A stretch of 42,942 nucleotides of DNA from a virus. The position numbers and the translations under genes are program-made. Shown here piece by piece: positions 29,335 to 42,066 of the stretch (positions are counted from its first letter, which is position 1; each line of letters starts with the position of its first letter). Under the pieces are notes generated by a model that had not been told where the DNA came from, ran no database searches, and saw only the letters and a list, made by a program, of their open reading frames with translations. Location: positions 1-42,942 of the IMG/VR virus record IMGVR_UViG_3300045120_000409. The stretch is one strand, 5' to 3'.

Positions 29335-29364
29335 TTGACACAGCCCAAGCGCTTAGGCGACAAT
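29335..29364 (+). promoter_or_regulatory. Consensus promoter with AAGCGCTT operator-like core
   Basis: TTGACA (29335-29340), an 18-bp spacer and GACAAT (29359-29364). The spacer carries the palindrome AAGCGCTT (29347-29354). The first 20 bases match the promoter at 41544 at 19 positions. The predicted start of transcription is 29371, the A of the next ATG. Confidence 0.75.
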
Positions 29365-29370
29365 AAGGGT

Positions 29371-29466
29371 ATGCAGAAGACGGTTGTGCTCACCCCGAAT
29401 CCGACGACGGTCATTGTCGTCCGCGCCGATGGCCGCTTCGCCATCATCACGAGGACCCGCGCATGA
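29371..29466 (+). CDS. 31-residue peptide, probable leaderless gene
   Basis: The ATG coincides with the predicted +1 of the promoter, and its stop overlaps the next ATG (ATGA). The peptide (MQKTVVLTPNPTTVIVVR, then DGRFAIITRTRA) looks like a beta hairpin with a basic end. It may act as a leader that couples translation of the following gene. The function is otherwise unknown. Confidence 0.5.
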   Translation: MQKTVVLTPNPTTVIVVRADGRFAIITRTRA

Positions 29467-29948
29467 GTGCCTATCAAGTTCACCCCGACACCATCGACCT
29501 ACTCGTCGCCGCTGCCGACCGGTGGCGGCTCACCTTCCCGTCGCGCTCGGATGTCCCGCACCAGGGCAGCGACCTCCACGTCTGCAGCCACCGCGACGAG
29601 GCCGGGCAGCTCCTGACGGACGAGAACGCGCGCAGCGTCGCCTACCGCTACGACGACGAGGACCGCACGCCGGAGATTCCCTACAGCTACACCTACCTCG
29701 ACCTCGACCGCGCGGCCGTCGGCATCCCGGTGCCGGTGCTCGTGCTCGGCTCGGTGCGCTGCCTGCGCTACCAGAGCTGCGAGACGCCTGACTACGCCAC
29801 GACGCGCGCGGCCATCCTGCTCGACCGCATCGAGGCCGAGGCCTGCCGTCGGCTCATCGACACCCACGAGTCACCGTGGGGTTACACGCGCGCCTGGACG
29901 ACCGACAAGCTCCAGGCCGCCAAGAAGCTCACCCTCGTCGTTCGTTAA
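29463..29948 (+). CDS. Hypothetical protein, DNA-metabolism accessory type
   Basis: The 161-residue protein begins MSAYQVHPDTIDLLVAAADR and contains a run of acidic residues and Tyr (YRYDDEDRTPEIPYSYTYLD). A segment VRCLRYQSCETPDYATTRAA and a C-terminal helix follow. Proteins opening MSAY-V-x-x-TI occur in plasmids and phages without known function; this similarity is from memory. It shares a transcription unit with the SpoVG-like gene. Confidence 0.58.
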   Translation: MSAYQVHPDTIDLLVAAADRWRLTFPSRSDVPHQGSDLHVCSHRDEAGQLLTDENARSVAYRYDDEDRTPEIPYSYTYLDLDRAAVGIPVPVLVLGSVRCLRYQSCETPDYATTRAAILLDRIEAEACRRLIDTHESPWGYTRAWTTDKLQAAKKLTLVVR

Positions 29949-29973
29949 CTCGGATTGTTCAGGAGTCACGCAC

Positions 29974-30321
29974 ATGTTCACCGTTCACATCACGCCCAAC
30001 GACAAAGGCAACCCTCCCGGCAAACTCGCCGACGCCGCGCTGCACTTCAGCGACGGCCCGCTCGGTGGGCTCAAGCTCATCGGCTTCTCGGTGTGGGAAC
30101 GTCGCGGCGGCGGCGGCCGCAACGTCACCTTCCCGGCGCGGCAGTATTCCGTCAACGGCGAGCGCCGGTCGTTCGCCCTGCTCCGGCCGGTCGTGGACCA
30201 CGACGCGCAGCTCAAGGTCAAGGACGCCATCCTGGAGGCCTACGCGGCCTTCGAGGCGCACATCGCCGACGCGGCGGCCAACGGCGCTGCCGCGCCCCTC
30301 GACTTCGCCTACGCGGTCTAA
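29974..30321 (+). CDS. SpoVG-like regulator
   Basis: The 115-residue protein has the order of strands and helix seen in SpoVG: a first part ADAALHFSDGPLGGLKLIGFS, then NVTFPARQYSVNGERRSFAL with the FPxR-like element, then LRPVVDHDAQLKVKDAILEAY. SpoVG proteins bind DNA or RNA and regulate cell-surface and sporulation genes in Firmicutes; phage versions are uncommon in my knowledge. AGGAG lies 8 bases before the ATG. It is the last gene of its unit, ending at the terminator at 30346. The assignment rests on pattern only. Confidence 0.6.
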   Translation: MFTVHITPNDKGNPPGKLADAALHFSDGPLGGLKLIGFSVWERRGGGGRNVTFPARQYSVNGERRSFALLRPVVDHDAQLKVKDAILEAYAAFEAHIADAAANGAAAPLDFAYAV

Positions 30322-30815
30322 TCGCGTCGTTCGTCCCGTCCAGGCACGGCCCGGCCCTCAGCAGCCGGGCCGTTTTCTTTTGTGTCACCAAAAATCTTGA
30401 CGCGCGCGAACCACAGCGCGCTGCCGGGCTCGCCGAGCGGCACACGCAACGGTGGCGCGTTCACCTCCGGCCGGAGCTTTCGCACGGGCCCCTGGCGCTT
30501 CACGCGCACCGGCCGGGCGCGCAGCCCGAGCAGGTAGTGCAGCAGCGGCACGTCGCCGCGTTTGTGGTTGCAGGTCCAGCACGCGCCCACGAGGTTCTGC
30601 CAGCCACGCGGCCGCAGATGGTCCGGCGTGCTCTTCGGGATGACGTGCTCGACGGTCATCAGCGTCGCGTCGCCGCGCTGAAACTTCTGGCCGGTGCCGC
30701 CGGGTAGTTCATCAGGACGACGCCCGCAGTAGACACACGGGTCGCGTCGCACGATGTCCACCCACGCGGGCTTCTGGAGCGCCTTAACGAGCGTCAGGAA
30801 CCGGTCGAGAGTCAT
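30318..30815 (-). CDS. HNH endonuclease
   Basis: The 165-residue protein has the HNH fold with a zinc knuckle: CVYCGRRP, then MTVEHVIPKSTPDHLRPRG, then NLVGACWTCNHKRG. The catalytic His is in VEHV, and the last Asn/His-type element is in CNHKRG. The C-terminal part is basic and disordered. Such nucleases in phages are homing enzymes or packaging aids; this one is in the early operon. It converges on the SpoVG-like gene with a 4-base overlap. Confidence 0.85.
   Translation of the reverse strand: MTLDRFLTLVKALQKPAWVDIVRRDPCVYCGRRPDELPGGTGQKFQRGDATLMTVEHVIPKSTPDHLRPRGWQNLVGACWTCNHKRGDVPLLHYLLGLRARPVRVKRQGPVRKLRPEVNAPPLRVPLGEPGSALWFARVKIFGDTKENGPAAEGRAVPGRDERRD
30346..30380 (+). terminator. Intrinsic terminator after the SpoVG-like gene
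   Basis: ACGGCCCGG (30346-30354) pairs perfectly with CCGGGCCGT (30365-30373), followed by TTTCTTTT. The hairpin ends the rightward unit begun at 29335. It lies inside the last codons of the leftward HNH gene, so that protein's C-terminus is coded by the terminator. Confidence 0.88.
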
Positions 30816-30969
30816 CCGGCACGTCGAGCGCCTCGCGCAGCGCGTCGAGCGCGTTCAGCCAGCCCAGGTGATACGCCACCTGCACGGCGCGCTGCTCGGG
30901 AAATTGCATCTCGCGCAGACGCTGCATCGCGAGATCGACGGCGGCCGCGTAGAGCACCTTCGGCAACAT
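30784..30969 (-). CDS. Small helical protein
   Basis: The 61-residue protein (MLPKVLYAAAVDLAMQRLRE, then YHLGWLNALDALREALDV) is almost all helix. The start is fixed by the perfect AGGAGG 6 bases before the ATG at 30969. The end overlaps the start of the HNH gene by 32 bases. The function is unknown. Confidence 0.65.
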   Translation of the reverse strand: MLPKVLYAAAVDLAMQRLREMQFPEQRAVQVAYHLGWLNALDALREALDVPDDSRPVPDAR

Positions 30970-30979
30970 CACAGCCCTC

Positions 30980-31186
30980 CTAGATATCCCACAGCAGCGG
31001 CTCCGCGCGCTCCGGCAAACGCGCAGGCAGCGCGAAGTGCGGCGGCGGGTCCCGATGCGCCCACGACAAGCGATACGCCCAGCCGCACGGGCAGACCACA
31101 TCAAATTCCCACGGCGTCGCGCCCGGCATCACCGGCGCGTCCTGACCGCAGTCGCAGCGAAACGTCGCGTCCTGGACGCGCGTCAC
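30980..31186 (-). CDS. Zinc-ribbon protein
   Basis: The 68-residue protein has two Cys pairs, CDCGQ at residues 11-15 and CPCGW near residue 32, as in zinc ribbons that bind nucleic acid or protein partners. It is coupled to its upstream neighbour by an ATGA overlap. The function is unknown. Confidence 0.6.
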   Translation of the reverse strand: MTRVQDATFRCDCGQDAPVMPGATPWEFDVVCPCGWAYRLSWAHRDPPPHFALPARLPERAEPLLWDI

Positions 31187-31701
31187 CAGCGCAGCTCCTG
31201 CGCCGTCAACATCGACGGCGCGGCGACCTTCACCAGCGGCGTCAGCGCCTCGTCGGGCACAAAATACGCAGGCCTCCCGCCCTTCGGGTCAGCCCACCAT
31301 TCGTGCCGCTTGGCGTCGCGTCCCCAAATCCACCCGACGACGGCATACCGAGGACAGCGGCCACGCACGAGCACGAAGCGCCGGTCATCAGGGTCTGACT
31401 GGTGAACAATCAACTGATAGTCGTCGCGCGTCCGCGTTCGCACCTGCCACGGGCCAACATCGTCGGCGGTGAGATTGCCGACCGCGCCACTCCAGAACAG
31501 CCCGGCAAACTTCGCGAAGGCACACTCGCCGCATGCGCCTTCGATGTGGTGCTGCCAGCCCAGGTCGTCGCTGCGAAGGCCGTGAGCATCGCGCCGCCGG
31601 TCGCGCAGGTTCGTGACGTTTCGCATCACGCCGACGCTCGCTGCCAAGATCACCTCCGGCCACGAGAGCACGATAGGAAAGTCACCCGAGGCAACCGGCA
31701 C
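31183..31701 (-). CDS. PD-(D/E)XK-type phage nuclease
   Basis: The 172-residue protein follows the layout of a known phage nuclease type: helix (PEVILAASVGVMRNVTNL), HHIEGACGECAFAKFAGLFW with its Glu, then NLTADDVGPWQVRTR with the DV and R, then YQLIVHQSDPDDRRFVLVRG. The layout is E-GE-x-A...D-V...Y/D-x-x-L-I-V, with P-x-Y-x-V-x-GWI-x-G following. GTG at 31701 has GGAG just upstream. It is part of the recombination operon; the natural substrate is unknown. Confidence 0.68.
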   Translation of the reverse strand: MPVASGDFPIVLSWPEVILAASVGVMRNVTNLRDRRRDAHGLRSDDLGWQHHIEGACGECAFAKFAGLFWSGAVGNLTADDVGPWQVRTRTRDDYQLIVHQSDPDDRRFVLVRGRCPRYAVVGWIWGRDAKRHEWWADPKGGRPAYFVPDEALTPLVKVAAPSMLTAQELRW

Positions 31702-31721
31702 GACTCCACCTCACATCGATC

Positions 31722-31967
31722 TCACTTCTGCTGTTTGGCAATGCAGACAAATTCCGCGTGCACCGGACCCGCCGGGGTGTTCTTCTTCAACGTGCCAGGG
31801 AAAATTTCCTCCTGACACCGCACGCACAGCACCGGCGGCTTCGTGCCGCGCTTGCTCACGCGCTCCAGGAACGGGTGGTCGCGATGCACGGGACAGAACA
31901 CGCTGTCGTCGGCCGCGAGCGCCGGGCACGGAATGCGGTCGGCGCTGACGTGCGTGCAGAGCTTCAT
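31722..31967 (-). CDS. Small Cys-rich protein
   Basis: The 81-residue protein holds paired Cys in MKLCTHVSADRIPCP, VFCPVHRDH and VLCVRCQEEI, with a final Cys near the end. This pattern is consistent with binding two zinc ions. It has no recognised family. The ATG overlaps the previous stop by ATGA. Confidence 0.58.
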   Translation of the reverse strand: MKLCTHVSADRIPCPALAADDSVFCPVHRDHPFLERVSKRGTKPPVLCVRCQEEIFPGTLKKNTPAGPVHAEFVCIAKQQK

Positions 31968-32143
31968 CGATGGCCGCCCGTGGTGCCACCCGTGAGCGAC
32001 GATGCGCTGTAGTTCATCGCCGACGACGGCGCGTTCACGATGGTTGGCTCATACTTCTGGGCCTGCAGCCACTCGTGCTTCAACTGCTTACTGCGAATAA
32101 AATCCTGCGCCTGCTGTATCGGCGTTCCGGGATTTGGTGACAT
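31964..32143 (-). CDS. Small hypothetical protein
   Basis: The 59-residue protein starts MSPNPGTPIQQAQDFIRSKQ and ends with a Ser/Thr/Gly-rich disordered tail (SSLTGGTTGGHR). The upstream part of the frame overlaps another gene and looks non-coding, so ATG at 32143 is preferred despite a weak ribosome site. The function is unknown. Confidence 0.5.
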   Translation of the reverse strand: MSPNPGTPIQQAQDFIRSKQLKHEWLQAQKYEPTIVNAPSSAMNYSASSLTGGTTGGHR

Positions 32144-32178
32144 TGCCGCCGCGCCCTGCGCGGTTCTCGTGGGCTCCG

Positions 32179-32388
32179 TCAGTCGCTGAAAGGGCGGATG
32201 AGCACGTCGATGCGCGTGAGGTCCACGTCGTGCTGATTTAGATCGCCGTTCATCACCGCGCCAATCGCGGCGGCCTGCGCGTCCTTCGCGACGACAGCCT
32301 TCGGTCCATACAGCAGCTTCTCGATGCCGCCCTCTTCGGCTTCTTTCCTGGTCGGCTTCTGCACAATCACGACTTCGAATACAGGCAT
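32179..32388 (-). CDS. Conserved small phage protein
   Basis: The 69-residue protein begins MPVFEVVIVQKPTRKEAEEG and continues EKLLYGPKAVVAKDAQAAAI, then IDVLIRPFSD. This pattern is shared with small proteins in many phages and is probably a ferredoxin-like domain. ATG at 32388 was chosen over 32391 because AGGAGG sits 6 rather than 3 bases away. The function is unknown. Confidence 0.65.
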   Translation of the reverse strand: MPVFEVVIVQKPTRKEAEEGGIEKLLYGPKAVVAKDAQAAAIGAVMNGDLNQHDVDLTRIDVLIRPFSD

Positions 32389-32398
32389 CATCCACCTC

Positions 32399-32605
32399 CT
32401 ACGGCTTCTTCACGAGACGCGGCTCTGTCAGCGGCGGCGGCTGTTGGTGCCGTTTGCGCTGTAAATATCGGTCGAGCAATTGCTGAGACCGCAGCGCGGC
32501 GGAACGCCGCTGTTTCGCCACCGTGACCTTCTTCTTGTAGAAGTCTGTTTTCTTCAACATCCCGGTGGCGATACGGCCGATGTGATTGCGCTCGCTCCTG
32601 GTCAT
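32399..32605 (-). CDS. Small basic protein
   Basis: The 68-residue protein is strongly basic (LKKTDFYKKKVTVAKQRRSA, LQRKRHQQPPP) and probably binds nucleic acid. GGAGG lies 5 bases before the ATG. It is followed by the AGGAGG of the next gene. No family is recognised. Confidence 0.55.
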   Translation of the reverse strand: MTRSERNHIGRIATGMLKKTDFYKKKVTVAKQRRSAALRSQQLLDRYLQRKRHQQPPPLTEPRLVKKP

Positions 32606-32884
32606 CCGCGCCTCCGTTTCTCTCTCCTCTTACGCTGGGGTGCTGCTGCGCCGGGCTGGCAGAGGTTCCCCCGAAGGCTGGAAGCACGAACCTCCGGCTC
32701 GGGAGTCTCTGCCGCTGCCTTATTACTCACGCCGGGTATGCCGAGCGCGGTATTGGCCGCGAGCGTGGCGTGACAGCACCCGCTCGCGCTGGTCAGTGAT
32801 TCGTGCGGCGCTGCACGCCGCCCCCACTCGCGCTTGCTGACCTGAGGTTCGCGCTGCGCGCTCTGAGTCTCCCGGTAGCGCGCT
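32606..32884. other. Gene-free stretch with inverted repeats
   Basis: This 279-base gap in the early operon has no convincing gene in any frame. It holds GAGGTTC (32662-32668) with GAACCTC (32688-32694). It also has an outer stem GGTCAG (32791-32796)/CTGACC (32837-32842) that encloses the hairpin GCGGCG-CTGCA-CGCCGC (32805-32821). GAGGTTC occurs again at 32844-32850, so alternative pairing is possible. It may encode a structured RNA or mark a deleted gene. Confidence 0.45.
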
Positions 32885-33082
32885 CTATTCCCGACTCGCC
32901 CCGGCCGGTTGTCCCTGCACAGCGAGTCGATACCAACACGACAGACACAACTCTGGATATTTGTCGAACGCCACACACGCCCACGCGCCACACTTGAAGC
33001 ACTGCGGCCAATCGAGCGGCTCGATCTCGATGACGCCGTCGCGCAGCAGCAGCTCGCGCGCCACCAGCTCAGGCCACGTCAT
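32885..33082 (-). CDS. Small zinc-ribbon protein
   Basis: The 65-residue protein starts MTWPELVARELLLRDGVIEI and contains CFKCGAWACVAF then CLSCWYRLAV, a zinc-ribbon arrangement. ATG at 33082 overlaps the stop of the HNH gene (ATGA); an ATG at 33100 would add 6 residues. The function is unknown. Confidence 0.58.
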   Translation of the reverse strand: MTWPELVARELLLRDGVIEIEPLDWPQCFKCGAWACVAFDKYPELCLSCWYRLAVQGQPAGASRE

Positions 33083-33363
33083 CGGCCGGTCTCGTGACAT
33101 GCGAGCGCCACGAAATCAAAATCGTTGCCGGTCACCTCGATGGCGTGATCGGCGTTGCCCGCGATCTCCAGGTCGCCGCTATGCACGAGCGCGTGGTGCG
33201 CGCGGCAGAGCGAGATCAGGTTGCTCGTCTCCCACATCAGCTCCGGTGCCTGCGAGCGATACTCAACGTGGTGCAGGTCGCGCGCCATCGCGAAGCAGCC
33301 CGGCACGCGACAGCGGCCACGGTCACGCGACCGACAAAACTCGCGCGCGTCGTGCTCAGTCAC
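33079..33363 (-). CDS. HNH endonuclease (small)
   Basis: The 94-residue protein contains CRVPGCFAMARDLHHVEYRS, then SNLISLCRAHHALVHSGDL, the HNH core with zinc-binding Cys and the LHHVEY catalytic His. GTG at 33363 overlaps the stop of the upstream gene (GTGA) and is preferred; the frame further upstream overlaps that gene and looks non-coding. It belongs to the early recombination operon. Confidence 0.78.
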   Translation of the reverse strand: MTEHDAREFCRSRDRGRCRVPGCFAMARDLHHVEYRSQAPELMWETSNLISLCRAHHALVHSGDLEIAGNADHAIEVTGNDFDFVALACHETGR

Positions 33364-33575
33364 CGGCGCGCCCGTTTCACTGCGGTCTCCTCTGGCTTCG
33401 CCCACTGCCACGCGCCACCGCGAAACACCATGCCGTGGACGTCGTCGCACCATTTACAGTGCAACGTGTCGCCTTCTTTCGGCGGCTCGGTGGCGAGGTT
33501 CATCTCGTCATCGAGCGTTTGCGTGCAGCAGCGCATCAATCCACCAGGACGCACCCGATACGACATCCCCTTCAT
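33360..33575 (-). CDS. Conserved small phage protein with Cys motif
   Basis: The 71-residue protein (MKGMSYRVRPGGLMRCCTQT, then PPKEGDTLHCKWCDDVHGMV, then FRGGAWQWAK) matches a small phage protein with the layout YRVRPGGLMRCC...PPKEGDxLxCxxC...MVFRxGAWxW. It probably binds zinc. The ATG at 33575 overlaps the upstream stop as ATGA, which decides the start. The function is unknown. Confidence 0.68.
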   Translation of the reverse strand: MKGMSYRVRPGGLMRCCTQTLDDEMNLATEPPKEGDTLHCKWCDDVHGMVFRGGAWQWAKPEETAVKRARR

Positions 33576-33985
33576 ACGGCACTTTGCCTGCGGCGCTTCC
33601 ACTCGGTCCAGCGCCGCCACTGACAGTCACGACAAATCGACTGCAAGCCGGTGCTCTTGTTGCCGCGCATTTGGTTGAACTGGTCGAACGGCTTGCAACG
33701 CTCACAGTCGCTGCAATACTTTTCAGCGTTGGGATTCCCGCCCGCTCTAACGACCTTTGCTCTGACGTGCAGCAGCTTGTGGAACGCCTGATCCTCACAA
33801 ATCACGAGGTTGCCGTTCGCCAAGTTATTTGTGTTTTCGTCAACGTGGTGAATCACAGCCTTCGCTGGCAGTGGTCGGCCCAGCGCGTTCACCGCCGCGA
33901 GAACGTGTAGCGCGACGTGGCCCTGAACGTCCGCTCGTGGGTGACCGTGCAGCGTCTGCTTTTTGTAACTAAACTTCTTTCTCAC
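33572..33985 (-). CDS. HNH homing-type endonuclease
   Basis: The 137-residue protein has an HNH homing nuclease core: VALHVLAAVNALGRPLPAKA, VIHHVDENTNNLANGNLVIC with its HH and N, and AFHKLLH. A second part has two CxxC pairs (YCSDCERCKPFDQFNQM, ICRDCQWRRWTEW). The combination of HNH with a zinc domain is typical of free-standing phage HNH enzymes. It may be mobile, as it stands between ninB and a small gene without an evident role. Confidence 0.78.
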   Translation of the reverse strand: MRKKFSYKKQTLHGHPRADVQGHVALHVLAAVNALGRPLPAKAVIHHVDENTNNLANGNLVICEDQAFHKLLHVRAKVVRAGGNPNAEKYCSDCERCKPFDQFNQMRGNKSTGLQSICRDCQWRRWTEWKRRRQSAV

Positions 33986-34395
33986 GCCGCGACCTCGTTG
34001 GGATCTGGGATGTAGATCCCCATCTCGGCACCGAGCCGCTGTGCGCGTTCGATCAGGTCGTTAAATTCCGCGACGTTGAGCTGTGATGTGTGGCCCGGCA
34101 CGATATGAAGCTCGCCGGTCTTGATGTCGATCACTTCGTGTGGAATGAGATGCAGCGCCAGGGCGTCGTGCATCGGCTGCTTGTCGTAGCCACAGTGCTC
34201 CATAAACAGCGGGACCACCACTTTCCACCAGTAGCGGTTCTGTGAGAGCGAGCGCTGGCGCTTGCCGACGGAGATTTTCAACGTCACCGGGCCGTCAGGA
34301 AAACGCGCGAGCGCCTGCTCGAACACTACGCGGCCTTCGAGGCGCAGCTTGCCTTTGATGATCTCGCCGCCGATTTCGAACATTTCCTGGGTCAT
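33982..34395 (-). CDS. ninB: NinB-like recombination protein
   Basis: The 137-residue protein resembles lambda NinB/Orf, which supports phage recombination by acting on single-stranded DNA. The family pattern is seen as SVGKRQRSLSQNRYWWKVVV, then FMEHCGYDKQPMHDALALHL. It lies next to the exonuclease and ERF genes, forming a recombination cluster. Its ATG overlaps the exonuclease stop. Confidence 0.75.
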   Translation of the reverse strand: MTQEMFEIGGEIIKGKLRLEGRVVFEQALARFPDGPVTLKISVGKRQRSLSQNRYWWKVVVPLFMEHCGYDKQPMHDALALHLIPHEVIDIKTGELHIVPGHTSQLNVAEFNDLIERAQRLGAEMGIYIPDPNEVAA

Positions 34396-35030
34396 GCGGC
34401 GGGCACCAGCCCTTCCATCGCTTCGACCTCTGCCTCGACCTCGCGCAAAAACTGCCGCGCCATCAGCTCATACGCGTCGATCTGGGCTTGGTCGCGCTGA
34501 TGACGGATGTGGAAAATCTGCAGGTGCGGCGGGAAGCGGTCGTCATACGACACAAACTCCACCCACTGCGCGCCGGTGATCCAGAGCTGATGGATCACTT
34601 GCCACAGGTATTCGCTCGGGAGCACGCCGCCCTTCCAGTAGGTGAAATGCGTGGCGCTCTTCGGACACTTGATCTCGATGAGGCCCTCGAAGTCGCCGAT
34701 GACGCCGTCGGGTGAACAGCCCGCCAGGAGCGTGTCGTGCTCGACAAAGCCGCACGGGTGAATCGTGCAGTTGAGCAGCAGCTCGGCGGCGGCCAGGGCT
34801 TCGGGCTCCTTGTCGATGCCGCGCTGCATGTCGTCGTTGATGTAGTTGCGCTCGGCGCTCTGCTTCGTCAGGCGCTCGACCGAGAGCTGCGTGCGAAGGT
34901 CGCGACGGCTCGCGGCCTCGTTGCTGCTCTTCAGCCGCGCCATCATGTCGGCCGCGCGGGACGCGGTGAATTTGCCGACGCGGAGCTGCGCCCAGGCCTC
35001 GCCGCGCTGATCGACATCGTGTCGAATCAC
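34392..35030 (-). CDS. YqaJ/lambda-type exonuclease
   Basis: The 212-residue protein has the exonuclease core: RVGKFTASRAADMMARL near the N-terminus, RGIDKEPEALAAAELL with its Glu, and GCSPDGVIGDFEGLIEIKCP with Asp108, Glu119 and Lys121. Lambda Exo degrades one strand from a DNA end; the partner annealing protein, ERF, is encoded next to it. The start codon is GTG, overlapping the ERF stop (GTGA). Confidence 0.88.
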   Translation of the reverse strand: MIRHDVDQRGEAWAQLRVGKFTASRAADMMARLKSSNEAASRRDLRTQLSVERLTKQSAERNYINDDMQRGIDKEPEALAAAELLLNCTIHPCGFVEHDTLLAGCSPDGVIGDFEGLIEIKCPKSATHFTYWKGGVLPSEYLWQVIHQLWITGAQWVEFVSYDDRFPPHLQIFHIRHQRDQAQIDAYELMARQFLREVEAEVEAMEGLVPAA

Positions 35031-35749
35031 TCCGACACCCTGGCCGCGCGTGCTTTGATCGCTTCCCAGGTCTTCCGGTCGGCCTTCGTCAAGTAGGCCT
35101 TGAACGCGCCCTTGCTACTAGTCCAGGCCTTGTCCACGGCGGGCTTGCCGTTGTCGGCGGCCGCGCTGAGGTCGAGCAGCCACTCGTCGTAGCCGTCCGG
35201 CTTTGGCATCGCGGGCTCGCTCGTCGTCGTGCGGCCGTTGTCGTCTTCGTTCCTGGTGGCGATGAGCAAGAGGCTCTGCAGCGTGTAGCGGCGACCGTAG
35301 CTGATCGCGCTGCCGAGCGCCTGGATGGCGTTCTTGTTGCCGGTGGTGTCGGCGCTCGCCACAAACTCACTGGTGATCGCGTGGCCGTCGCGATGGGTCA
35401 GGACGGCAGTGACGCGCACGCGATTCGGCTCGGGATAATCCGAGTGGTGTGTCACTGCGAAGCCGTGCTTGTGCAGCACCGGCCGCGCGATCTCGATGAT
35501 GTCTTCGAGCAGCGGATACGGGCCGTTGAGACTGCGCCCGCGCTCCGGCACCGTCGGCATTTCGTGCTGCATCGCCGAGAAGCTCGCGTTGAACGCGGCC
35601 TCTGCGTTGTGCCGCATCACGCGCTCTTGCAGCTCGATGAGTTTTTCGAGTTTGTCCACCGGCACATTCGGGTCGGCGGCGAGCCGTTCGAACATGGTCA
35701 CGACCGGCGGCGGCTCGGGGGTCGGCAGCGTCTCCAGCAGATCAGGCAT
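35027..35749 (-). CDS. erf: ERF family single-strand annealing protein
   Basis: The 240-residue protein has the ERF core: ELQERVMRHNAEAAFNASFS, then ARPVLHKHGFAVTHHSDY, then NAIQALGSAISYGRRYTLQ. ERF proteins anneal complementary strands and help phage genomes circularise or recombine. The acidic/Ala-rich C-terminus follows the domain. GGAG lies upstream of the ATG. It works with the exonuclease at 34392. Confidence 0.9.
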   Translation of the reverse strand: MPDLLETLPTPEPPPVVTMFERLAADPNVPVDKLEKLIELQERVMRHNAEAAFNASFSAMQHEMPTVPERGRSLNGPYPLLEDIIEIARPVLHKHGFAVTHHSDYPEPNRVRVTAVLTHRDGHAITSEFVASADTTGNKNAIQALGSAISYGRRYTLQSLLLIATRNEDDNGRTTTSEPAMPKPDGYDEWLLDLSAAADNGKPAVDKAWTSSKGAFKAYLTKADRKTWEAIKARAARVSE

Positions 35750-35960
35750 TCACGTCTCCCGGTCGTTCCGCCGCGCAATACCAGCAGCGACGAATCCCGT
35801 CGCGGCCTTTCATCGTGAAGTTGTGCGCGCCACCCAGGCGCGCGGGACACTGCTGACTCAGCGTGATGGTCGGCTGCGGCTCGTCCTGGCGTTCCTGCTG
35901 TTGCTCACGCCATGCGGCCTCGTCCTGCTGCTGACGACGCTCACGCTCCTGGCGGCTCAT
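35742..35960 (-). CDS. Small Gln-rich protein with zinc motif
   Basis: The 72-residue protein has a charged, Gln-rich helical N-terminal half (ERERRQQQDEAAWREQQQER), then CPARLGGAHNFTMKG and CWYCAAER, a single CxxC-type zinc motif. It overlaps both neighbours. GTG at 35963 is an alternative start. The function is unknown. Confidence 0.58.
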   Translation of the reverse strand: MSRQERERRQQQDEAAWREQQQERQDEPQPTITLSQQCPARLGGAHNFTMKGRDGIRRCWYCAAERPGDVNA

Positions 35961-36288
35961 CACTCACCCGCGCTTGTTTCACCGTCGTCCAGGTGCGCTC
36001 GTTCTTCCGGCCGAACGTCGGCGTGAACACCGGGTCGCCGTCGAGCCAGCGACTGACCAGCACGCCAGAATACTTCTTGAGGCCTGCGGCGAATTTCAGC
36101 AGCAGCTTGTCGTAGTGGCCGTGTGACTGGTGGTAGAAGAACGTCGAAGGCTGAATGCCCAGGATCAGCCGCAGCTCCTGGCCCGTCATCGGTGCCCCGC
36201 TGCGCGCGAGCGCAATGGCCGCCTCGCGCGCAGACATCGAGGTCGTCTCCGGCGGCACGGTGTCCACGACAACCTCTCGGGGGCTCAT
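35941..36288 (-). CDS. Helix-turn-helix protein
   Basis: The 115-residue protein has a winged-HTH-like segment: SAREAAIALARSGAPMTGQE, then LRLILGIQPSTFFYHQSHGH. It is followed by a basic part ending KQARVSDEPPGA. It lies directly after the XRE regulator in the leftward early operon, coupled by ATGA, with GGAG upstream. It may regulate early genes or act in replication. Confidence 0.6.
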   Translation of the reverse strand: MSPREVVVDTVPPETTSMSAREAAIALARSGAPMTGQELRLILGIQPSTFFYHQSHGHYDKLLLKFAAGLKKYSGVLVSRWLDGDPVFTPTFGRKNERTWTTVKQARVSDEPPGA

Positions 36289-36551
36289 CTCAACATCTCC
36301 TTGAGCACGGCGGGTGCGGGCAGCTCGGGTGGCGCGTCCTGCGGGAACAGTTCTTCGACGGTGCGGTTCAACACCTTGGCGAGGCGCTTCCGCTCGTCCT
36401 TGGATAGTTCCTTGCGGCCGTTCACAGCGCGCGACAGCGTCTCGGGGGTCATCAGCGCTTCGCGCGCGATGTCCTTCTGGAGGCGGCCCGTGCCGCGCGA
36501 ATGGTCGGCGAGAATCGCGAGCTTGAGAGAGACATTCACAAATCGCGGCAT
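36285..36551 (-). CDS. XRE-family regulator (Cro-like candidate)
   Basis: The 88-residue protein is an XRE-type helix-turn-helix protein. Counting from the ATG at 36551, the HTH is about residues 23-45 (RLQKDIAREALMTPETLSRA), followed by KDERKRLAKVLNRTVEELFP, the usual C-terminal dimer helix. GGAG lies 7 bases before that ATG. Its gene is first in the leftward early operon and opposes the putative repressor, the position of Cro in lambdoid phages. Confidence 0.78.
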   Translation of the reverse strand: MPRFVNVSLKLAILADHSRGTGRLQKDIAREALMTPETLSRAVNGRKELSKDERKRLAKVLNRTVEELFPQDAPPELPAPAVLKEMLR

Positions 36552-36606
36552 GCCCCAGCTCCTTCGAGAAGGCATACCCTAAAACAAGATTCTGTCCGAT
36601 GCAACT

Positions 36607-36625
36607 GTGCTATATGAAATAGCAC
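36607..36625. promoter_or_regulatory. Operator-like inverted repeat in the divergent switch region
   Basis: GTGCTAT-ATGAA-ATAGCAC is a perfect 7-bp inverted repeat with a 5-bp spacer. It lies between the divergent XRE gene (start 36551) and the putative repressor (start 36679). The 19-bp size fits binding by a dimeric HTH repressor. Confidence 0.7.
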
Positions 36626-36661
36626 GAAACGTTGGAGCTACTAGGAGAAGTTAAGAGGCTT

Positions 36662-36670
36662 TGGTATGAT
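36662..36670 (+). promoter_or_regulatory. Extended -10 promoter for the 36679 gene
   Basis: TGGTATGAT is an extended -10 element with TATGAT at 36665-36670. No clear -35 exists, which extended -10 promoters do not need. The predicted start is about 36677, 2 bases before the ATG, so the mRNA would be nearly leaderless. Confidence 0.5.
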
Positions 36671-36678
36671 TCGCACAC

Positions 36679-37239
36679 ATGCGGGGCGTCTCGTGGGTCG
36701 GGCTCATGAAGCTACGCGGCACGGTGGAAAACACCGCGATGGCCCGACGTGCGCTTGGGCCGAGTGCGACGCCGCGCACCGTCGCGTCGCTCTCGAACTA
36801 CTTCTCTCGCGTCATCAACGGCCGCGTGCACAAGGTCTCCGCACAGGTGCTCGGGCAGATCGCGCTCGGCTTAGGCTACCGGTCGATGAGCAGCTTCTAC
36901 GCCGACTGGGAGCGCACGACCGCTGACAAACCCGCCCGTCACCGCCCGCGCCCGGTTCCCGGCGCAGCGGCCCCACCTGAACCGTTCATGCAGGGCTTCA
37001 CAAAAAGTGTAGATACCCTCTCGTCAAATCTCCGAAAATCTGGTATTACAGAGCGCGATGGGAAGCGCCGGAGTAAAGACGAGGTCGAAGCGCTCGCACG
37101 CCAGCTCCATGCCTTCGCCGAGACGTGTGCCGCTCTCGGAGATACGCTTGCTCGTGAGAGCAATGCAGCAGCTCGTCGGCCACGACCGGCAGTGGAAGGT
37201 CGTGATCGCCCGCGACCTCGAACGCGCGCTCGTCGCTGA
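36679..37239 (+). CDS. Putative lysogeny repressor / DNA-binding protein
   Basis: The 186-residue protein starts the rightward operon opposite the XRE gene. The N-terminal part (LMKLRGTVENTAMARRALGP, LSNYFSRVINGRVHKVSAQV, LGQIALGLGYRSMSSFY) is compatible with a helix-turn-helix domain, followed by a Pro-rich hinge. No protease-type C-terminal domain is seen. No ribosome site precedes the ATG. The last 25 or so residues (AARRPRPAVEGRDRPRPRTR) look like read-out of an overlapping gene in another frame, so the C-terminus is doubtful. Confidence 0.58.
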   Translation: MRGVSWVGLMKLRGTVENTAMARRALGPSATPRTVASLSNYFSRVINGRVHKVSAQVLGQIALGLGYRSMSSFYADWERTTADKPARHRPRPVPGAAAPPEPFMQGFTKSVDTLSSNLRKSGITERDGKRRSKDEVEALARQLHAFAETCAALGDTLARESNAAARRPRPAVEGRDRPRPRTRARR

Positions 37240-37306
37240 ACGCCGCGCGTTCGAACAACGCACGCCCCGCCGTCGGAAAACCTACAAATTTTTCAATGGG
37301 AGTTAA
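37058..37306 (+). CDS. Overlapping small gene in another frame
   Basis: The 82-residue frame overlaps the end of the repressor-like gene by 182 bases. Its second half (LLVRAMQQLVGHDRQWKVVI, ARDLERALVAERRAFEQRT) looks like a real helical protein, more so than the repressor frame in the same stretch. The true start may be the ATG at 37163 (47 residues) with GAGAGC just upstream. A programmed or recent frameshift joining the two frames is another explanation. Confidence 0.42.
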   Translation: MGSAGVKTRSKRSHASSMPSPRRVPLSEIRLLVRAMQQLVGHDRQWKVVIARDLERALVAERRAFEQRTPRRRKTYKFFNGS

Positions 37307-37308
37307 GC

Positions 37309-37749
37309 ATGGCGCGATCTGCTTTCGATGCGTCTGACTTCGTCTCCATCCTGGGCCAGCACTTCGTGAAGCACGAACGACAGACGCTGCTCAACATCCC
37401 TGGGTCATCGGTCTCTTACGACCGCGTGACACTCGGCCGCTTGGGCTGTCCGCATCCTGCTGCCGCGTTGCGTCTCAACCGCGTGTTCCAAGAACTTCGC
37501 ATCCGCACGCTCGAAGGGTTAGCACGGGAAATTCACACCATCGGCAATTTCAAAGGCCTGGGCGTCACCGCGTATTTCGTGGTGCTCGCAATTCTGCGCG
37601 AGCACGGCTACGATGCCGAAAAACTCCACGGGGAAGACGTCACGGTTTCGACATTAAAGTCGCGAGCCAATAAGGCCTCGCGCAAGCGCGCGACGAAGCG
37701 GCCGCGTCGCGCGGGTCCACCTTCAGAGGCGGCCGATGCTGGAGCCTGA
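37309..37749 (+). CDS. Hypothetical basic protein
   Basis: The 146-residue protein has an alpha/beta look in the N-terminal two-thirds (FDASDFVSILGQHFVKHERQ, LGVTAYFVVLAILREHGY) and a basic C-terminal tail (RANKASRKRATKRPRRAG) that could bind DNA. GGGAG lies 6 bases before the ATG. It overlaps the next gene by 14 bases. Confidence 0.6.
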   Translation: MARSAFDASDFVSILGQHFVKHERQTLLNIPGSSVSYDRVTLGRLGCPHPAAALRLNRVFQELRIRTLEGLAREIHTIGNFKGLGVTAYFVVLAILREHGYDAEKLHGEDVTVSTLKSRANKASRKRATKRPRRAGPPSEAADAGA

Positions 37750-38431
37750 TATGAAGAAGATCGACTACAAGGAGCAGACGTATCGCATCGGCATCCCGAT
37801 TCGCGTGCGCGAGATCGAAGAGGAAATCTCCGGCTACCATCGTGACTACCCCGAGCTGTTTTTAAGTGAAGCGGTGCCGCAGCTTTTGCGGCCGGAGCTA
37901 CGCAACGGCGCGTCGTCTAACGGCACTGCGCCGAAAGTCGCGAAGGCTGCCGCGTCCGGCTACAGCAAGAACGTCGTCACGCAGCGCACAAAGTCGCTCG
38001 ACATTCTCAACTGGATCGGCTTGGCGAAGTCGCGGACCCTCGACGCGATGCGGAAGCACGGCGTCGATATGCGCGGCATCCATCAGCTCGTGAACAATGG
38101 CTACCTCCGACGCCAGGGCGACGCGTTCATCCGCACCAAAAAAGAATTTCTCGTCGCGAAGTGGTTGTCGCGCGGAGTCGCCGAGCGCATGGAGATCGTC
38201 GGCACGCCGGTGAAAGTGAAGAAGGCGAAGAAGGGGTCCTGGGCGCTGAATCGGCACGAAACTCGCACGAGGAGCGCCGAGTTAATCAACAGCTTCGACA
38301 CCGAGAACCCGAAGCCCGCACCGAAGGAGCATATCCGCTCGATGGGCAGCTACGTCCGGCGCGGCTATCTGAAGCAGCGCGGTCGAGGGCTCTACATCCG
38401 CACGGGCAAGGTGTATCAAGTCGATGCCTAA
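37736..38431 (+). CDS. Protein with two related winged-helix-like modules
   Basis: The 231-residue protein has two similar segments. The first runs from SLDILNWIGLAKSRTLDAM to IHQLVNNGYLRRQGDAFIRT, the second from SAELINSFDTENPKPAP to MGSYVRRGYLKQRGRGLYIR. Each ends in the pattern (V/L)xxGYLxxxGxxxxIRTxK, the wing of many phage DNA-binding proteins. ATG at 37751 (MKKIDYKEQ) is an alternative start. Tandem wings suggest binding to a repeated or long DNA site, such as an origin or operator. Confidence 0.65.
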   Translation: MLEPDMKKIDYKEQTYRIGIPIRVREIEEEISGYHRDYPELFLSEAVPQLLRPELRNGASSNGTAPKVAKAAASGYSKNVVTQRTKSLDILNWIGLAKSRTLDAMRKHGVDMRGIHQLVNNGYLRRQGDAFIRTKKEFLVAKWLSRGVAERMEIVGTPVKVKKAKKGSWALNRHETRTRSAELINSFDTENPKPAPKEHIRSMGSYVRRGYLKQRGRGLYIRTGKVYQVDA

Positions 38432-38444
38432 GTAGGAGGTGCTC

Positions 38445-39299
38445 GTGGGGCACGAGCAAATCACCCAGGCCGAGACCTGGACGTTTTACATCCCGGCGAA
38501 AATTCCGCACGCGGTCCCCGGCGTCATCGAGCTGGGGCGCGTCCTGGCGGAAGCAAAGACCGCGCTGGCCCCGGCTGAATTTGACCGGCTGTTCAACGAA
38601 CGGCTGGTCCCCTTCGGCCGGTCCTCTGCGAATCAACTGATTGCCATCGCGTCGCACGCGGTGCTCGCGAACCCGACCCACGCGGCCGTGCTGCCGACCG
38701 CGTGGACCATCCTGGGCGTGCTGGCGGGCATCCCCGCCGAGCTGCTCGATCCGGCCGTGCGCGAGGGCCGCGTGACGCCGACGTCGTCGCGCGGCGACGC
38801 CAAGACGCTCTATCGCGCGTTGATGCCCAGCCGGAAGGCCGCGCTGGCCGTCGATCAGCCGACCTACCTCCGCGCCGACACTCCTGCCCGGCGCGACGCG
38901 CGGCTCAACCGGATGCGCGAGCTGGCCGCCGAAGGGGCGCGCTCCGACCAAATCGCCGCCGCTGTGAATCTGCACCCGGCGACCTGCCGCGCGTTGATGC
39001 GGAAGCACGGCATCGACTGCGTCGCCGACCGGGTGACCGGCCGCTCGCGGCGGCTGAACGCTGACCGCATTCTCGAAGACCTTGTCCGCAGCGCGCACGG
39101 CATCGCCGAAGACATCAAGCTGATCGCCTTCGAGCAGCTCACGCCCGCTGCCGTCCCCGAGCACGTCGCCTCGCTCAAGACCTCCCTCAAGGCCATCGGC
39201 CAGCTCGTCACCCGCCTGGACGCCAAGGAGCGTTATGCAGCAAAAACGAAACTCGCTCACGCCGAGGAACCCCGGAAAAATCGTGGAGGTGCTCATTAG
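38445..39299 (+). CDS. DUF3102-like DNA-binding protein with HTH
   Basis: The 284-residue protein has an N-terminal segment IELGRVLAEAKTALAPAEFD, then FGRSSANQLIAIASHAVL and LPTAWTILGVLAGIPAELLD, the pattern of DUF3102-type and plasmid/phage replication-associated proteins. A helix-turn-helix follows (MRELAAEGARSDQIAAAVNL), then a helical C-terminus. GTG at 38445 is chosen because AGGAGG lies 5 bases before it. Its end overlaps the ParB-like gene by 65 bases. Confidence 0.65.
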   Translation: MGHEQITQAETWTFYIPAKIPHAVPGVIELGRVLAEAKTALAPAEFDRLFNERLVPFGRSSANQLIAIASHAVLANPTHAAVLPTAWTILGVLAGIPAELLDPAVREGRVTPTSSRGDAKTLYRALMPSRKAALAVDQPTYLRADTPARRDARLNRMRELAAEGARSDQIAAAVNLHPATCRALMRKHGIDCVADRVTGRSRRLNADRILEDLVRSAHGIAEDIKLIAFEQLTPAAVPEHVASLKTSLKAIGQLVTRLDAKERYAAKTKLAHAEEPRKNRGGAH

Positions 39300-40077
39300 T
39301 TTGCTGGAGACACCTCCGGCGCTCGTCATCCAGCGGCCGTTCATCCAGGCGCACGGCGACGCGCTCGCGAAGGACCTCGACCTCTCGCTGCTCGGGTATC
39401 CGGTGGTGAATCATCGCGACGGCAAATGGTGGATCGTGGACGGCCAGCACCGCATCTACGCGCTGCGCGAGAACGACCTGGGCAACGAGAAGCTGTATTG
39501 CGAGGTCCACGAGAACATGACGGACCAGGAGATGGCGCAGCATTTTCTCGGGCGCGACAAGCGTCGCGCGATCTCCCCGTTCGCGAAATTCAAGATCGGC
39601 TGCACGGCGGGCCAGACGCGGGAGAACGCCATCCAGCGCGTCGTGGAGGCCAACGGCCTGACCATCATGCGGACGAAGGGCACGAAGAACGTCGGCGCGG
39701 TGAGCACGCTCATTCGGATTTACGATTCGAACCCGACGAAGGACACGGCCGTCGGGTTCGTGGTGCGCGTCGCCAAACTCGCGTTCCAGGGCGACTCGCT
39801 CGGCTTCGACGCGGCGATGCTCGAAGCGCTCGGGTTGATCAACACCCGCTACAATGGACGCGTCGTGGAGAAGCTGCTCATCGAGCGGCTCTCGCTGCCC
39901 CAGAACAGTGCCCGCAACCTGATGCGCCGTGCGGAGGACATCCGCGCTCGCACCGGCAACTACAAGGCCCCGTGTCTTGCCAGCGTCATCGTGGACGCTT
40001 ACAACCGAGGCGCGTTTGGCAAAGCGCGCCTGCAGTCCTGGTGGAAAACGTCGGAGAGCGACGCGTCCGAAGGGTAG
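39235..40077 (+). CDS. ParB-like nuclease-fold protein (DUF6551-like)
   Basis: The 280-residue protein has the ParB/Srx core: LGYPVVNHRDGKWWIVDGQ then HRIYALRENDLGNEK, the conserved DGQHR element. A helical C-terminal domain follows (VEANGLTIMRTKG, MLEALGLINTRYNGRVVEK). AAGGAG lies 4 bases before the ATG. In phages such proteins range from partition-like regulators to nucleases; no ParA is encoded nearby, so partition is unlikely. It is translated from an unusually long overlap with the preceding gene. Confidence 0.75.
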   Translation: MQQKRNSLTPRNPGKIVEVLISLLETPPALVIQRPFIQAHGDALAKDLDLSLLGYPVVNHRDGKWWIVDGQHRIYALRENDLGNEKLYCEVHENMTDQEMAQHFLGRDKRRAISPFAKFKIGCTAGQTRENAIQRVVEANGLTIMRTKGTKNVGAVSTLIRIYDSNPTKDTAVGFVVRVAKLAFQGDSLGFDAAMLEALGLINTRYNGRVVEKLLIERLSLPQNSARNLMRRAEDIRARTGNYKAPCLASVIVDAYNRGAFGKARLQSWWKTSESDASEG

Positions 40078-40083
40078 GTCCCG

Positions 40084-40419
40084 ATGATCCGTAAAACCGA
40101 TGCGCCCCCGTTCGAGGAAATTCTCAAAGCGATGAGCGACCCCGAAAATCTCCCGAGGAAACTCGGCGGCCGAGGCGAGACCGACACCGAGCGCCTCGAA
40201 GCGAAGGCCGCGCTGCTGCGAATCACGGCCGACCCCGACAAGATCCGCGCGGTCTGCATCGGCTGCAGCGACGACATGCCGATGCGCGAGGCCGCGATGT
40301 GCGAGTGCGGCGGCTTCGTCTGCGCGGCGTGCCAGCGTCTCGAAGAAGAGGGCGTGTGCGACCACCAGAAACCCGCGCTGCTCGACGGCGTGCCGGAGGA
40401 CGAAGATGACGATGACTGA
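40084..40419 (+). CDS. Zinc-binding acidic protein
   Basis: The 111-residue protein has a helical N-terminal half and a Cys-rich centre: CIGC at about residue 59, CECGGFVCAACQRL around 74-87, and CDHQK. These Cys and His could bind two zinc ions. The C-terminus is a run of Asp/Glu. It overlaps the membrane protein gene by 14 bases. Confidence 0.6.
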   Translation: MIRKTDAPPFEEILKAMSDPENLPRKLGGRGETDTERLEAKAALLRITADPDKIRAVCIGCSDDMPMREAAMCECGGFVCAACQRLEEEGVCDHQKPALLDGVPEDEDDDD

Positions 40420-40741
40420 CGCACGCGCGGGCTACATCGCGGCTATCGGCTCGGGGCTCGGCGTCGTGCTGCAGCTCCTGGCCGTCGCCCTCACCGTGTG
40501 GCACACCGGAGACAACGGGCTCATTCTCAGCATCCAGAGCGTGCTGCTCGTCATCACCGTGCTGACGCTGTGGCGCGCCCGCTCGATGATGGCCGAGCAC
40601 ATCGAGAAGATCGGGCGTTACGCGGCCGAGCGCAAGATGTCCGAGATCATGCTGGAGAAAATGCGGGACGCGACGCTCACGACCGCGACGGTGGAAGCAG
40701 ACGTCGAGGACGACGACACGCCACCAGGGCGTCGGCACTGA
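40406..40741 (+). CDS. Two-segment membrane protein
   Basis: The 111-residue protein has two hydrophobic helices, about residues 9-32 (IAAIGSGLGVVLQLLAVALT) and 38-57 (GLILSIQSVLLVITVLTLWR). A charged cytoplasmic tail follows that includes a helix (EHIEKIGRYAAERKMSEIML). It resembles holins and phage exclusion proteins in layout. GGAGG lies 6 bases before the ATG. The function is unknown. Confidence 0.62.
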   Translation: MTMTDARAGYIAAIGSGLGVVLQLLAVALTVWHTGDNGLILSIQSVLLVITVLTLWRARSMMAEHIEKIGRYAAERKMSEIMLEKMRDATLTTATVEADVEDDDTPPGRRH

Positions 40742-40742
40742 C

Positions 40743-40892
40743 ATGCATCACAAACGACGGCGGGCCCCAGATCGTCGCGCGGGCTGCGCGATGTGCAAGC
40801 CGCACAAGCTCTCCGGCTGGCGGAAACGGATCAAGATTCGCGGGCTGCGCGTGCCGCGTCGGCTCGACCGGCTGGAGGACGGGAAACTATGA
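40743..40892 (+). CDS. 49-residue basic CxxC protein
   Basis: The short protein has the element RRAGCAMCKPHKLSGWRKRI, matching a small conserved phage/bacterial protein with a CxxCKPHK motif, and a basic tail. It follows the membrane protein stop by one base and overlaps the next ATG by ATGA, so the whole short stretch is coding. The function is unknown. Confidence 0.6.
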   Translation: MHHKRRRAPDRRAGCAMCKPHKLSGWRKRIKIRGLRVPRRLDRLEDGKL

Positions 40893-41203
40893 ACAAAGTG
40901 ATCGGCGAGAAGACGCGGCCGACCAACGAGCCGCCGCTCTGTGTGACGTGCAGCAACGCGCTCATCGTGAAGGGCACGCGCTTCGGCGACGACCTGACCA
41001 TTTGTCGCAGCGGGCTCGGGCCGGTGCGGTTTCGCGTGACGGAGTGCAGCGCCTACGACGACAGCCGGATCGTCCCGGTCTATCGCCTCGAAGAGACCGC
41101 GTGGCGACGATGGGGCGACCGCTTCGTCTCACCCTCTGAGCTATACGAGCTACGGCGCGCGGCCGCACAAAGTGGAAACGCGGCCGACGACGACGAGAAG
41201 TAA
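40889..41203 (+). CDS. Zinc-ribbon-like protein
   Basis: The 104-residue protein (MNKVIGEKTRPTNEPPLCVT then CSNALIVKGTRFGDDLTICR, then FRVTECSAYDDSRIVPVYRL) has Cys residues suitable for a zinc ribbon and a Tyr-rich C-terminal domain. The ATG at 40889 overlaps the upstream stop as ATGA; a longer frame upstream overlaps the 49-residue gene and is unlikely. Confidence 0.6.
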   Translation: MNKVIGEKTRPTNEPPLCVTCSNALIVKGTRFGDDLTICRSGLGPVRFRVTECSAYDDSRIVPVYRLEETAWRRWGDRFVSPSELYELRRAAAQSGNAADDDEK

Positions 41204-41206
41204 CCG

Positions 41207-41431
41207 ATGGCGATGAGCGACCGGCAGGAGCGTTGGTATCGCGAGAAGGACCTCGTGCGCCTGCGGCAGCAAATCGGCGAGGCCCCGCTCACCGTCCACT
41301 GTCGCCCGCGCGAAGGCGGCGGGACCATCTACGTGGCGACCGACCTGCACGGCGTCACGTTCGAGGGTCGCTTCCAGGTCGTGGCGGCCTGGATTGAAGG
41401 CTACCGCATGGCCCATGCCTGGGCCCGGTGA
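41207..41431 (+). CDS. Small hypothetical protein
   Basis: The 74-residue protein (DRQERWYREKDLVRLRQQIG, LTVHCRPREGGGTIYVATDL, VTFEGRFQVVAAWIEGYRMA) has a helical start and a beta-rich middle. Its stop overlaps the next ATG by one base. A second ATG at 41213 is possible. No family is recognised. Confidence 0.55.
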   Translation: MAMSDRQERWYREKDLVRLRQQIGEAPLTVHCRPREGGGTIYVATDLHGVTFEGRFQVVAAWIEGYRMAHAWAR

Positions 41432-41538
41432 TGTGGACGGTGCTGCTGATCCTGGCGCTCGTGCTGGCGCTGGTGCTGCTGATTGCTATCGGCGTCCTGG
41501 TGGTGCTCTTCGGGCCGCCGACCGGTCTCTGGAAATAG
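41431..41538 (+). CDS. 35-residue membrane peptide
   Basis: One long hydrophobic helix (TVLLILALVLALVLLIAIGV then LVVLFG) is followed by PPTGLWK. The ATG overlaps the preceding stop (TGATG). It ends 5 bases before the promoter at 41544, so it closes its transcription unit. Confidence 0.52.
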   Translation: MWTVLLILALVLALVLLIAIGVLVVLFGPPTGLWK

Positions 41539-41543
41539 CCTGT

Positions 41544-41573
41544 TTGACACAACCCAAGCGCTTGATGTATCAT
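41544..41573 (+). promoter_or_regulatory. Consensus promoter with AAGCGCTT operator-like core
   Basis: TTGACA (41544-41549), an 18-bp spacer and TATCAT (41568-41573) match sigma-70 at six and five positions. The spacer contains AAGCGCTT (41556-41563). The first 20 bases match 29335-29354 at 19 positions, so the two promoters are likely bound by the same factor. Confidence 0.8.
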
Positions 41574-41596: not shown

Positions 41597-41851
41597 ATGC
41601 CCTCATACGAAGACGACCTCATTCGACGCGCCCGTGAACTGCAGCGCCTCGCGACGAAACGCCGCCGCCTGAAGCGCCAGCTCAAACAAGTGGACCTCGA
41701 CATCAAGAAGGCCCGCAAGGACCTCAACGCGGTCAAGCAGGCGAGCGAAGGCCGCCGCCCTGACGCCGCGCCGAGCCGTCTGCACGCGGGCGTGACCAGT
41801 GTCGGCACCCTGCACACCGAACTGCCCGACTCGAAGGAGAAAGCATCGTGA
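41597..41851 (+). CDS. Small coiled-coil protein
   Basis: The 84-residue protein begins MPSYEDDLIRRARELQRLAT and continues with a basic coiled coil (KRRRLKRQLKQVDLDIKKAR) before a disordered C-terminus. AAGGAGATAGG lies well placed before the ATG. The gene is first downstream of the 41544 promoter. The function is unknown. Confidence 0.62.
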   Translation: MPSYEDDLIRRARELQRLATKRRRLKRQLKQVDLDIKKARKDLNAVKQASEGRRPDAAPSRLHAGVTSVGTLHTELPDSKEKAS

Positions 41852-42066
41852 CAAACAAGACCGCCACCACCACCGAGCCCGACTACATCGTGGAAAACCA
41901 CGGCAGCGTGTTCCTGTTCGTCGCGCAGACGAACGAGGCGCACGACAACCTGAAGGAGAACGCGCAGGAGGGCGCGCAGTTTTTCGGCCGCGCGCTCGTG
42001 GTCGAGCACCGCTATGCCGCCGACCTCGCGCAGCGGCTGCAGGAGGAAGGATGGCTGGTCCAATGA
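41848..42066 (+). CDS. Small hypothetical protein
   Basis: The 72-residue protein begins at GTG (GTGA overlap with the preceding stop) with AAGGAG 8 bases before. Its sequence (DYIVENHGSVFLFVAQTNEA, FFGRALVVEHRYAADLAQRL, GWLVQ) is alpha/beta and resembles small host-derived accessory proteins. No function is known. Confidence 0.6.
   Translation: MTNKTATTTEPDYIVENHGSVFLFVAQTNEAHDNLKENAQEGAQFFGRALVVEHRYAADLAQRLQEEGWLVQ

Follow-up and report, generated by a model that had tools for sequence, protein, structure and literature searches.

A putative operator dyad shared by the spacers of two distant promoters in an uncultured, probably temperate soil phage

Operators that serve several promoters of one phage are already a familiar type. 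In the lambda-type OL/OR arrangement of temperate phages one dyad of about 16–18 bp is found at two or more distant promoters, where it overlaps the promoter elements. The L5-type sites are situated in promoters and between genes and are oriented with transcription (PMC9283540), the cluster A phages carry 20–30 asymmetric stoperator sites per genome (PMC6550527), and in Gifsy prophages LexA-controlled antirepressor genes are placed outside the immunity region (PMC3121763). The DNA analysed here (the window) is the entire IMG/VR virus record IMGVR_UViG_3300045120_000409, 42,942 bases with 65.5% G+C, and represents an uncultured temperate phage from soil. Two distant promoters of the window, P1 and P2, share a site in the spacer between the -35 and -10 boxes, and both are probably controlled by one dimeric helix-turn-helix (HTH) repressor that would bind this site, a 16-bp dyad.

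With the lambda-type operators the window shares the size of the dyad, its presence at distant promoters, the overlap with promoter elements and the setting of a temperate phage with an integrase; however, there is a single site per promoter, that of P2 being largely a half-site, and no operator is found in the divergent HTH control region, the place of the repressor and Cro operators in lambda-type immunity. The resemblance to the cluster A (L5-type) phages lies in sites that occur in promoters and between genes, follow the direction of transcription and are scattered outside the immunity locus, but the L5 sites are asymmetric, 13 bp long, bound by a monomer and numerous, whereas those of the window and its relatives are dyads numbering two or three per genome (two clear and one possible in the 42.9 kb of the window). 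By analogy, promoters outside the immunity region that may be operator-controlled recall the LexA-controlled genes of Gifsy; in distinction from these, no LexA box was recognised and no antirepressor was identified in the window phage.

The original prediction was that P1 and P2 share a 20-bp block with 19 of 20 bases matching and that both have 18-bp spacers, and direct reading of the two sites verified these statements. The block, TTGACACAGCCCAAGCGCTT at P1 (29335–29354) and TTGACACAACCCAAGCGCTT at P2 (41544–41563), begins at TTGACA in both cases. With up to three mismatches it occurs in the window at these two places only, against a mean of 0.01 in 100 shuffles, none of which contained two; thus the match is real and beyond chance. 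In a sigma-70-like promoter scan of positions 25000–42942 P1 and P2 were the top two (11/12 and 10/12), nothing better was found in the whole window, and -35 and -10 hexamers at 16–18 bp spacing are present at both promoters and retained in their orthologues in the relative described below. P2 begins a few bases past the stop codon of the preceding gene. The exact block was not found in any other viral contig, and the search of named phages and plasmids gave no relevant match.

The conserved unit proved to be different from the one first proposed, which was the palindrome AAGCGCTT. By itself this 8-mer occurs twice in the window against 0.76 expected, a number reached in 20 of 100 shuffles, and because the similarity of P1 and P2 is lopsided around its centre (16 bases to the left, 4 to the right) the 8-mer is not in itself a conserved unit. 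Comparison was possible with IMGVR_UViG_3300036791_000888 (G001; 41,647 bp), the sole relative found by the viral-contig search with the first protein of the unit behind P2, whose portal is 82% identical to that of the window and whose gene order is mostly the same. The G001 orthologue of P1 (L086:3417) reads TTGACA-GT-ACCTAAGTGGTTAGG-TATTAT with a 17-bp spacer and lies upstream of the orthologous 161-aa gene, and that of P2 (L065:2949) reads TTGACA-TA-ACCTAACCGTATGATG-TATCCT with an 18-bp spacer, stands before the unit-2 gene and is conserved with the window as far as the ribosome-binding site. In place of AAGCGCTT these sites have AAGTGGTT and AACCGTAT. Across the sites the core varies (AAGTGGTT, AACCGTAT, AAGCGGTT, AACCGCTT) while the ACC-AA / TT-GGT arms persist, and AAGCGCTT alone was rejected as the operator, since its number in the window is close to chance and it is not preserved. 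The conserved unit is the 16-bp dyad ACCYAA-NCGN-TTRGGT, located in the spacer 2 bp past TTGACA.

Both G001 promoters retain TTGACA, the spacing and the ACC(C/T)AA arm, and the remainder of the spacer drifts. The P1 and P2 regions of the two phages align strongly (0/500 shuffles as good). At P1 the dyad has 7/8 pairs in the window and 6/8 in G001, and its outer pair differs on both sides (G..C in the window, A..T in G001), a double change that preserves the dyad. In addition, CCCAA of the window corresponds to CCTAA in G001 at both promoters and likewise at a possible third site discussed below, which would fit a joint change, although three sites are few.

Further sites were obtained when the pattern TTGACANNRCCYAAGNGNTTAGG was run over 2.9 million viral contigs, where this dyad-promoter scan returned two contigs only, G001 and the 11,060-bp contig IMGVR_UViG_3300036785_001134 (L095). 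The kinship of L095 to the window came to light after the scan had picked it: the terminase is 59% identical over 485 aa, the exonuclease 53% and the HNH protein 46%. Three such promoters, A, B and C, are borne by this contig. Since only site A had been selected by the pattern and is circular as a test, the decisive ranking was built from B and C as a 16-bp matrix with the -35 box left out. Among the 42,927 positions of the window this matrix ranked P2 first and P1 second, and in G001 it ranked P1 first of its stretch. Conversely, with a matrix made from P1 of the window and P1 of G001 the L095 sites A, B and C were the top three (19.5, 16.2 and 13.4; next 9.2), and none of 200 shuffles gave a third match as high. 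In this way a conserved spacer dyad was found at several promoters of one phage group, P2 being dyadic only in part, and the proposal of a repressor-type site common to the spacers of P1 and P2 is supported by the cross-genome tests.

These comparisons also bear on the explanation that the block was merely copied through duplication of a promoter cassette inside the genome, the palindrome being without function. The similarity within the window is indeed one-sided, takes in the -35 box and concerns two copies only; but the flanks of P1 and P2 show no duplication, the G001 promoters share TTGACA-NN-ACCTAA though both differ from the window, and the dyad stands at unrelated positions in L095, so that such copying is very improbable.

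Several observations weigh against a common repressor. In both phages the right arm is largely missing at P2 (5/8 pairs in the window and 4/8 in G001, near background), and with the B+C matrix G001 P2 reaches only rank 67 in the 19.6-kb stretch. Taken by themselves, the matrix scores of P1 and P2 are unremarkable in a genome of 43 kb, as 33/200 shuffles reach the top score; the evidence consists in the ranks of sites named beforehand. Finally, the motif is carried by three related contigs only.

The incomplete P2 site leads to another explanation, an asymmetric site of the cluster A stoperator type, which would be bound by a monomer, read along transcription, and able to stop elongation in addition to initiation. 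In its favour, only the left arm is kept at P2 and at the possible third site O3, in both cases oriented with transcription, and O3 lies in an intergenic gap where no convincing promoter was seen. O3 (18801–18816) is the third-best match in the window with a matrix of A, B and C and the tenth with B and C only; its segment TCTATGTTA(G/C)CAC(G/A)ACC(C/T)AA is kept in G001 (L067:15093), where the DNA further upstream has diverged and the 68-aa gene beside it is 90% identical. Against this, P1 in both phages and the three L095 sites are dyads with 5–7 of 8 pairs, and two or three sites per phage are far from the 20–30 of cluster A (PMC6550527), which makes a stoperator quite improbable. Activation of the MerR type was also suggested by a dyad in the spacer and was dropped, because the spacers here are 16–18 bp; those of MerR-type promoters have 19–20 bp.

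According to the favoured explanation, a single dimeric HTH protein would bind ACCYAA-NCGN-TTRGGT in the spacers of P1 and P2 and stop RNA polymerase from opening these sigma-70-type promoters. The full dyad of P1 may form a strong site and P2, with mainly its left half, a weaker one, and upon removal of the repressor unit 1 (small open reading frame (ORF), 161-aa gene and SpoVG-like gene) and unit 2 could be switched on together. The common site and its conservation are read directly from the DNA, and binding, repression and co-expression are what they would imply. The site thus appears to belong to a real, small repressor–operator regulon in uncultured temperate phages. It provides this soil phage group with a candidate operator sequence and seven sites, so that the regulon may be predicted from DNA alone and the repressor captured with a defined probe (Table 1).

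Table 1. Coordinates of the promoters, putative operators, genes and candidate regulators (window positions; L095 sites by sequence)
Feature	Position	Strand	Description
Promoter P1	29335..29364	+	-35 TTGACA 29335-29340, 18-bp spacer, -10 GACAAT 29359-29364
Promoter P2	41544..41573	+	-35 TTGACA 41544-41549, 18-bp spacer, -10 TATCAT 41568-41573
Putative operator O1	29343..29358	.	full dyad GCCCAAGC/GCTTAGGC, 7/8 pairs; rank 2/42,927 with L095 B+C matrix
Putative operator O2	41552..41567	+	left half ACCCAAGC and core GCTT; right arm GATG off-dyad; 5/8 pairs; rank 1/42,927 with L095 B+C matrix
Possible third site O3	18801..18830	-	half-operator TCTATGTTAGCACGACCCAAGCGGTAAGAG; directly upstream of 68-aa gene 18585-18791(-)
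L095 site A			TTGACA-CT-ACCCAAGCGGTTAGGT; upstream of Erf and exonuclease genes
L095 site B			TTGACA-T-ACCAAACCGCTTGGGT
L095 site C			TTGACA-CT-AGCCAACCGCTTCGGT
Unit 1, first small ORF	29371..29466	+	31 aa with ATG 29371 as start, 26 aa with GTG 29386
Unit 1, 161-aa protein	29463..29948	+	68% identical in G001; no convincing family match
Unit 1, SpoVG-like protein, 115 aa	29974..30321	+	62 viral relatives; AlphaFold2 predicted local distance difference test (pLDDT) 89; Foldseek to phage SpoVG proteins
Unit 1, intrinsic-terminator-like hairpin	30346..30383	+	end of unit; 10-bp stem, TTTCTTTTGT
Unit 2, first gene, 84 aa	41597..41851	+	82% identical in G001, only relative found
Unit 2, rest	41848..42942	+	small genes to record end; last is 60% identical to G001 gene directly before its integrase
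Candidate regulator 1, 96-aa HTH protein	36285..36575	-	first gene of leftward recombination operon; HTH_3 3e-6, LacI HTH 5.9e-5
Candidate regulator 2, 186-aa HTH-like protein	36679..37239	+	divergent from regulator 1; N-terminal 78 aa 58% identical in G001; weak HTH match

The further explanations are variants of the same repressor control and differ only in the protein that binds. One candidate is the own immunity (CI/Cro-like) repressor of the phage, encoded by either of the two candidate regulator genes, with P1 and P2 as extra operators of the lysogenic switch. Both HTH proteins are present in the window and recur in G001, the first matches a LacI-type HTH, and LacI-type operators typically have a AANCGNTT core; moreover, the phage is probably temperate, and L095 site A heads recombination genes, which are classic lytic targets. 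Nevertheless, neither by eye nor among the best matrix matches was the operator seen in the control region between the divergent HTH genes of any of the three phages (window 36576–36678; G001 L086:11037–11177; L095:8401–8557). In the window this region contains a different inverted repeat, GTGCTAT-ATGAA-ATAGCAC (36608–36626), which is perhaps the immunity operator of the phage, and in L095 it has repeated TCATAACC instead. Between the window and G001 the control regions show hardly any alignment (16/500 shuffles as good), in contrast to the P1 and P2 regions. The immunity repressor is therefore a possible binder to be considered only tentatively, and since the divergent control region has no site in any of the three phages, the repressor at O1 and O2 is most likely not one acting there. 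The missing site and the divergence of these regions point instead to a protein of the host or to another regulator of the phage.

If the binder were encoded by the host, as an SOS repressor or a protein of the LacI type, it would link phage genes to the state of the host. The AANCGNTT core with its mostly CpG centre resembles the operators of the LacI family, and the site is near-constant across phages with differing immunity regions. All sites lie outside these regions, an arrangement as in the LexA-controlled antirepressor genes (PMC3121763). On the other side, the exact block gave a single match in the genome collection, about the chance expectation, in a Planctomycete metagenome-assembled genome and without a -10 box, and the literature searched contained no box of such a form for LexA or LacI; as a result, a host binder is rather doubtful. 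Less probable still is the wider proposal that a host repressor acting through ACCYAA-NCGN-TTRGGT governs promoters outside the immunity region throughout this soil phage group, including the Erf and exonuclease genes of L095. If it were true, lytic recombination and the SpoVG-like unit would answer to the host state independently of the immunity switch, and any host repressor at these sites would show how such phages read the host state outside the immunity locus.

The genes behind the promoters do not indicate the time of expression unequivocally. Expression of both units in the lysogen, as originally predicted, is neither shown nor favoured by the sequences, because the same site heads the Erf/exonuclease recombination genes of L095, a lytic function, though the P2 unit of G001 runs toward the integrase, located about 1 kb past it on the same strand (L086:15496–16704, phrog_1 8e-9). 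The window has its integrase at the opposite end from P2 and on the other strand. The position of an operator within the spacer is an argument that transcription is repressed in some circumstances, of which lysogeny or the lack of an inducing signal would be the simplest.

Unit 1 consists of the small ORF, the 161-aa gene and the SpoVG-like gene and ends with the terminator-like hairpin at 30346, matches to such hairpins being overall barely above shuffles (17 vs 12.4). In G001 a similar ORF, of 30 aa, comes before the orthologue of the 161-aa gene. In the window the first ATG downstream of P1 (29371) is 6 bases past the -10 box, approximately at the expected transcription start, which suggests that the small ORF is leaderless or starts at the GTG at 29386. 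The SpoVG-like label was supported by fold, as Foldseek with the AlphaFold2 model found phage SpoVG predictions (probability 1.00, template modelling (TM) score 0.55–0.61), but not by Pfam or NCBIfam models, where no match was obtained, nor was there a match in the Protein Data Bank (PDB). Its 62 relatives in IMG/VR contigs (loci L003–L064) are mostly 55–80% identical, named phages gave no match, and the protein with its relatives is apparently an undescribed viral SpoVG-like family. A general association of the motif with the SpoVG-like gene was rejected, as the block was not found near the gene in these 62 relatives and across 50 phage records the dyad was at control level except in G001 and L095. 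The searched right-arm stretch of G001 gave no match to this gene, and P1 is therefore conserved without it. In another phage, G015 (IMGVR_UViG_3300010362_000039), a 24-bp dyad GCTAACCTAA-GCAG-TTAGGTTAGC is situated directly upstream of a TATACT box (L097:1497–1520), about 2 kb or less from a SpoVG-like gene; it is operator-like but without TTGACA, and such matches are at control level over the 50 phage records.

The window phage is probably a temperate podovirus, as it has P22-type portal, head-closure and coat genes, a leftward recombination operon (HTH, Erf-like, RecE-like exonuclease and NinB), a ParB-like gene, and an integrase at 252–1511(-) (phrog_1 5e-17; PF00589 over the cut-off). No named phage is similar at the DNA level to the right arm, the portal is at best about 24–28% identical to those of named phages, and no portal relative, prophage or host, was found in a collection of 84,980 species genomes.

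Two leftward genes are divergent from P1 (28606–29233(-)). The product of one has 106 aa and shares 77% identity with its G001 counterpart; P1 was not shown beside its relatives in L089, L090 and L091, these loci being too distant. The other product, 47% identical in G001, combines a CxCxxC (zinc-ribbon-like) part with an HTH-like part and might be a regulator. Between the divergent gene 28916–29233(-) and P1 there is a 24-base element, CTTGACAGCAACCGCAGAACCCTG (29260–29283), kept in G001 (L086:3364–3386), where a one-base gap indicates that it is not conserved as coding sequence, and AACCGCAGAAC is also present around 8417–8427 within the control region of L095. Upstream of P1, in the rightward region, a tRNA-Ser (GCT) gene is located at 28011–28098.

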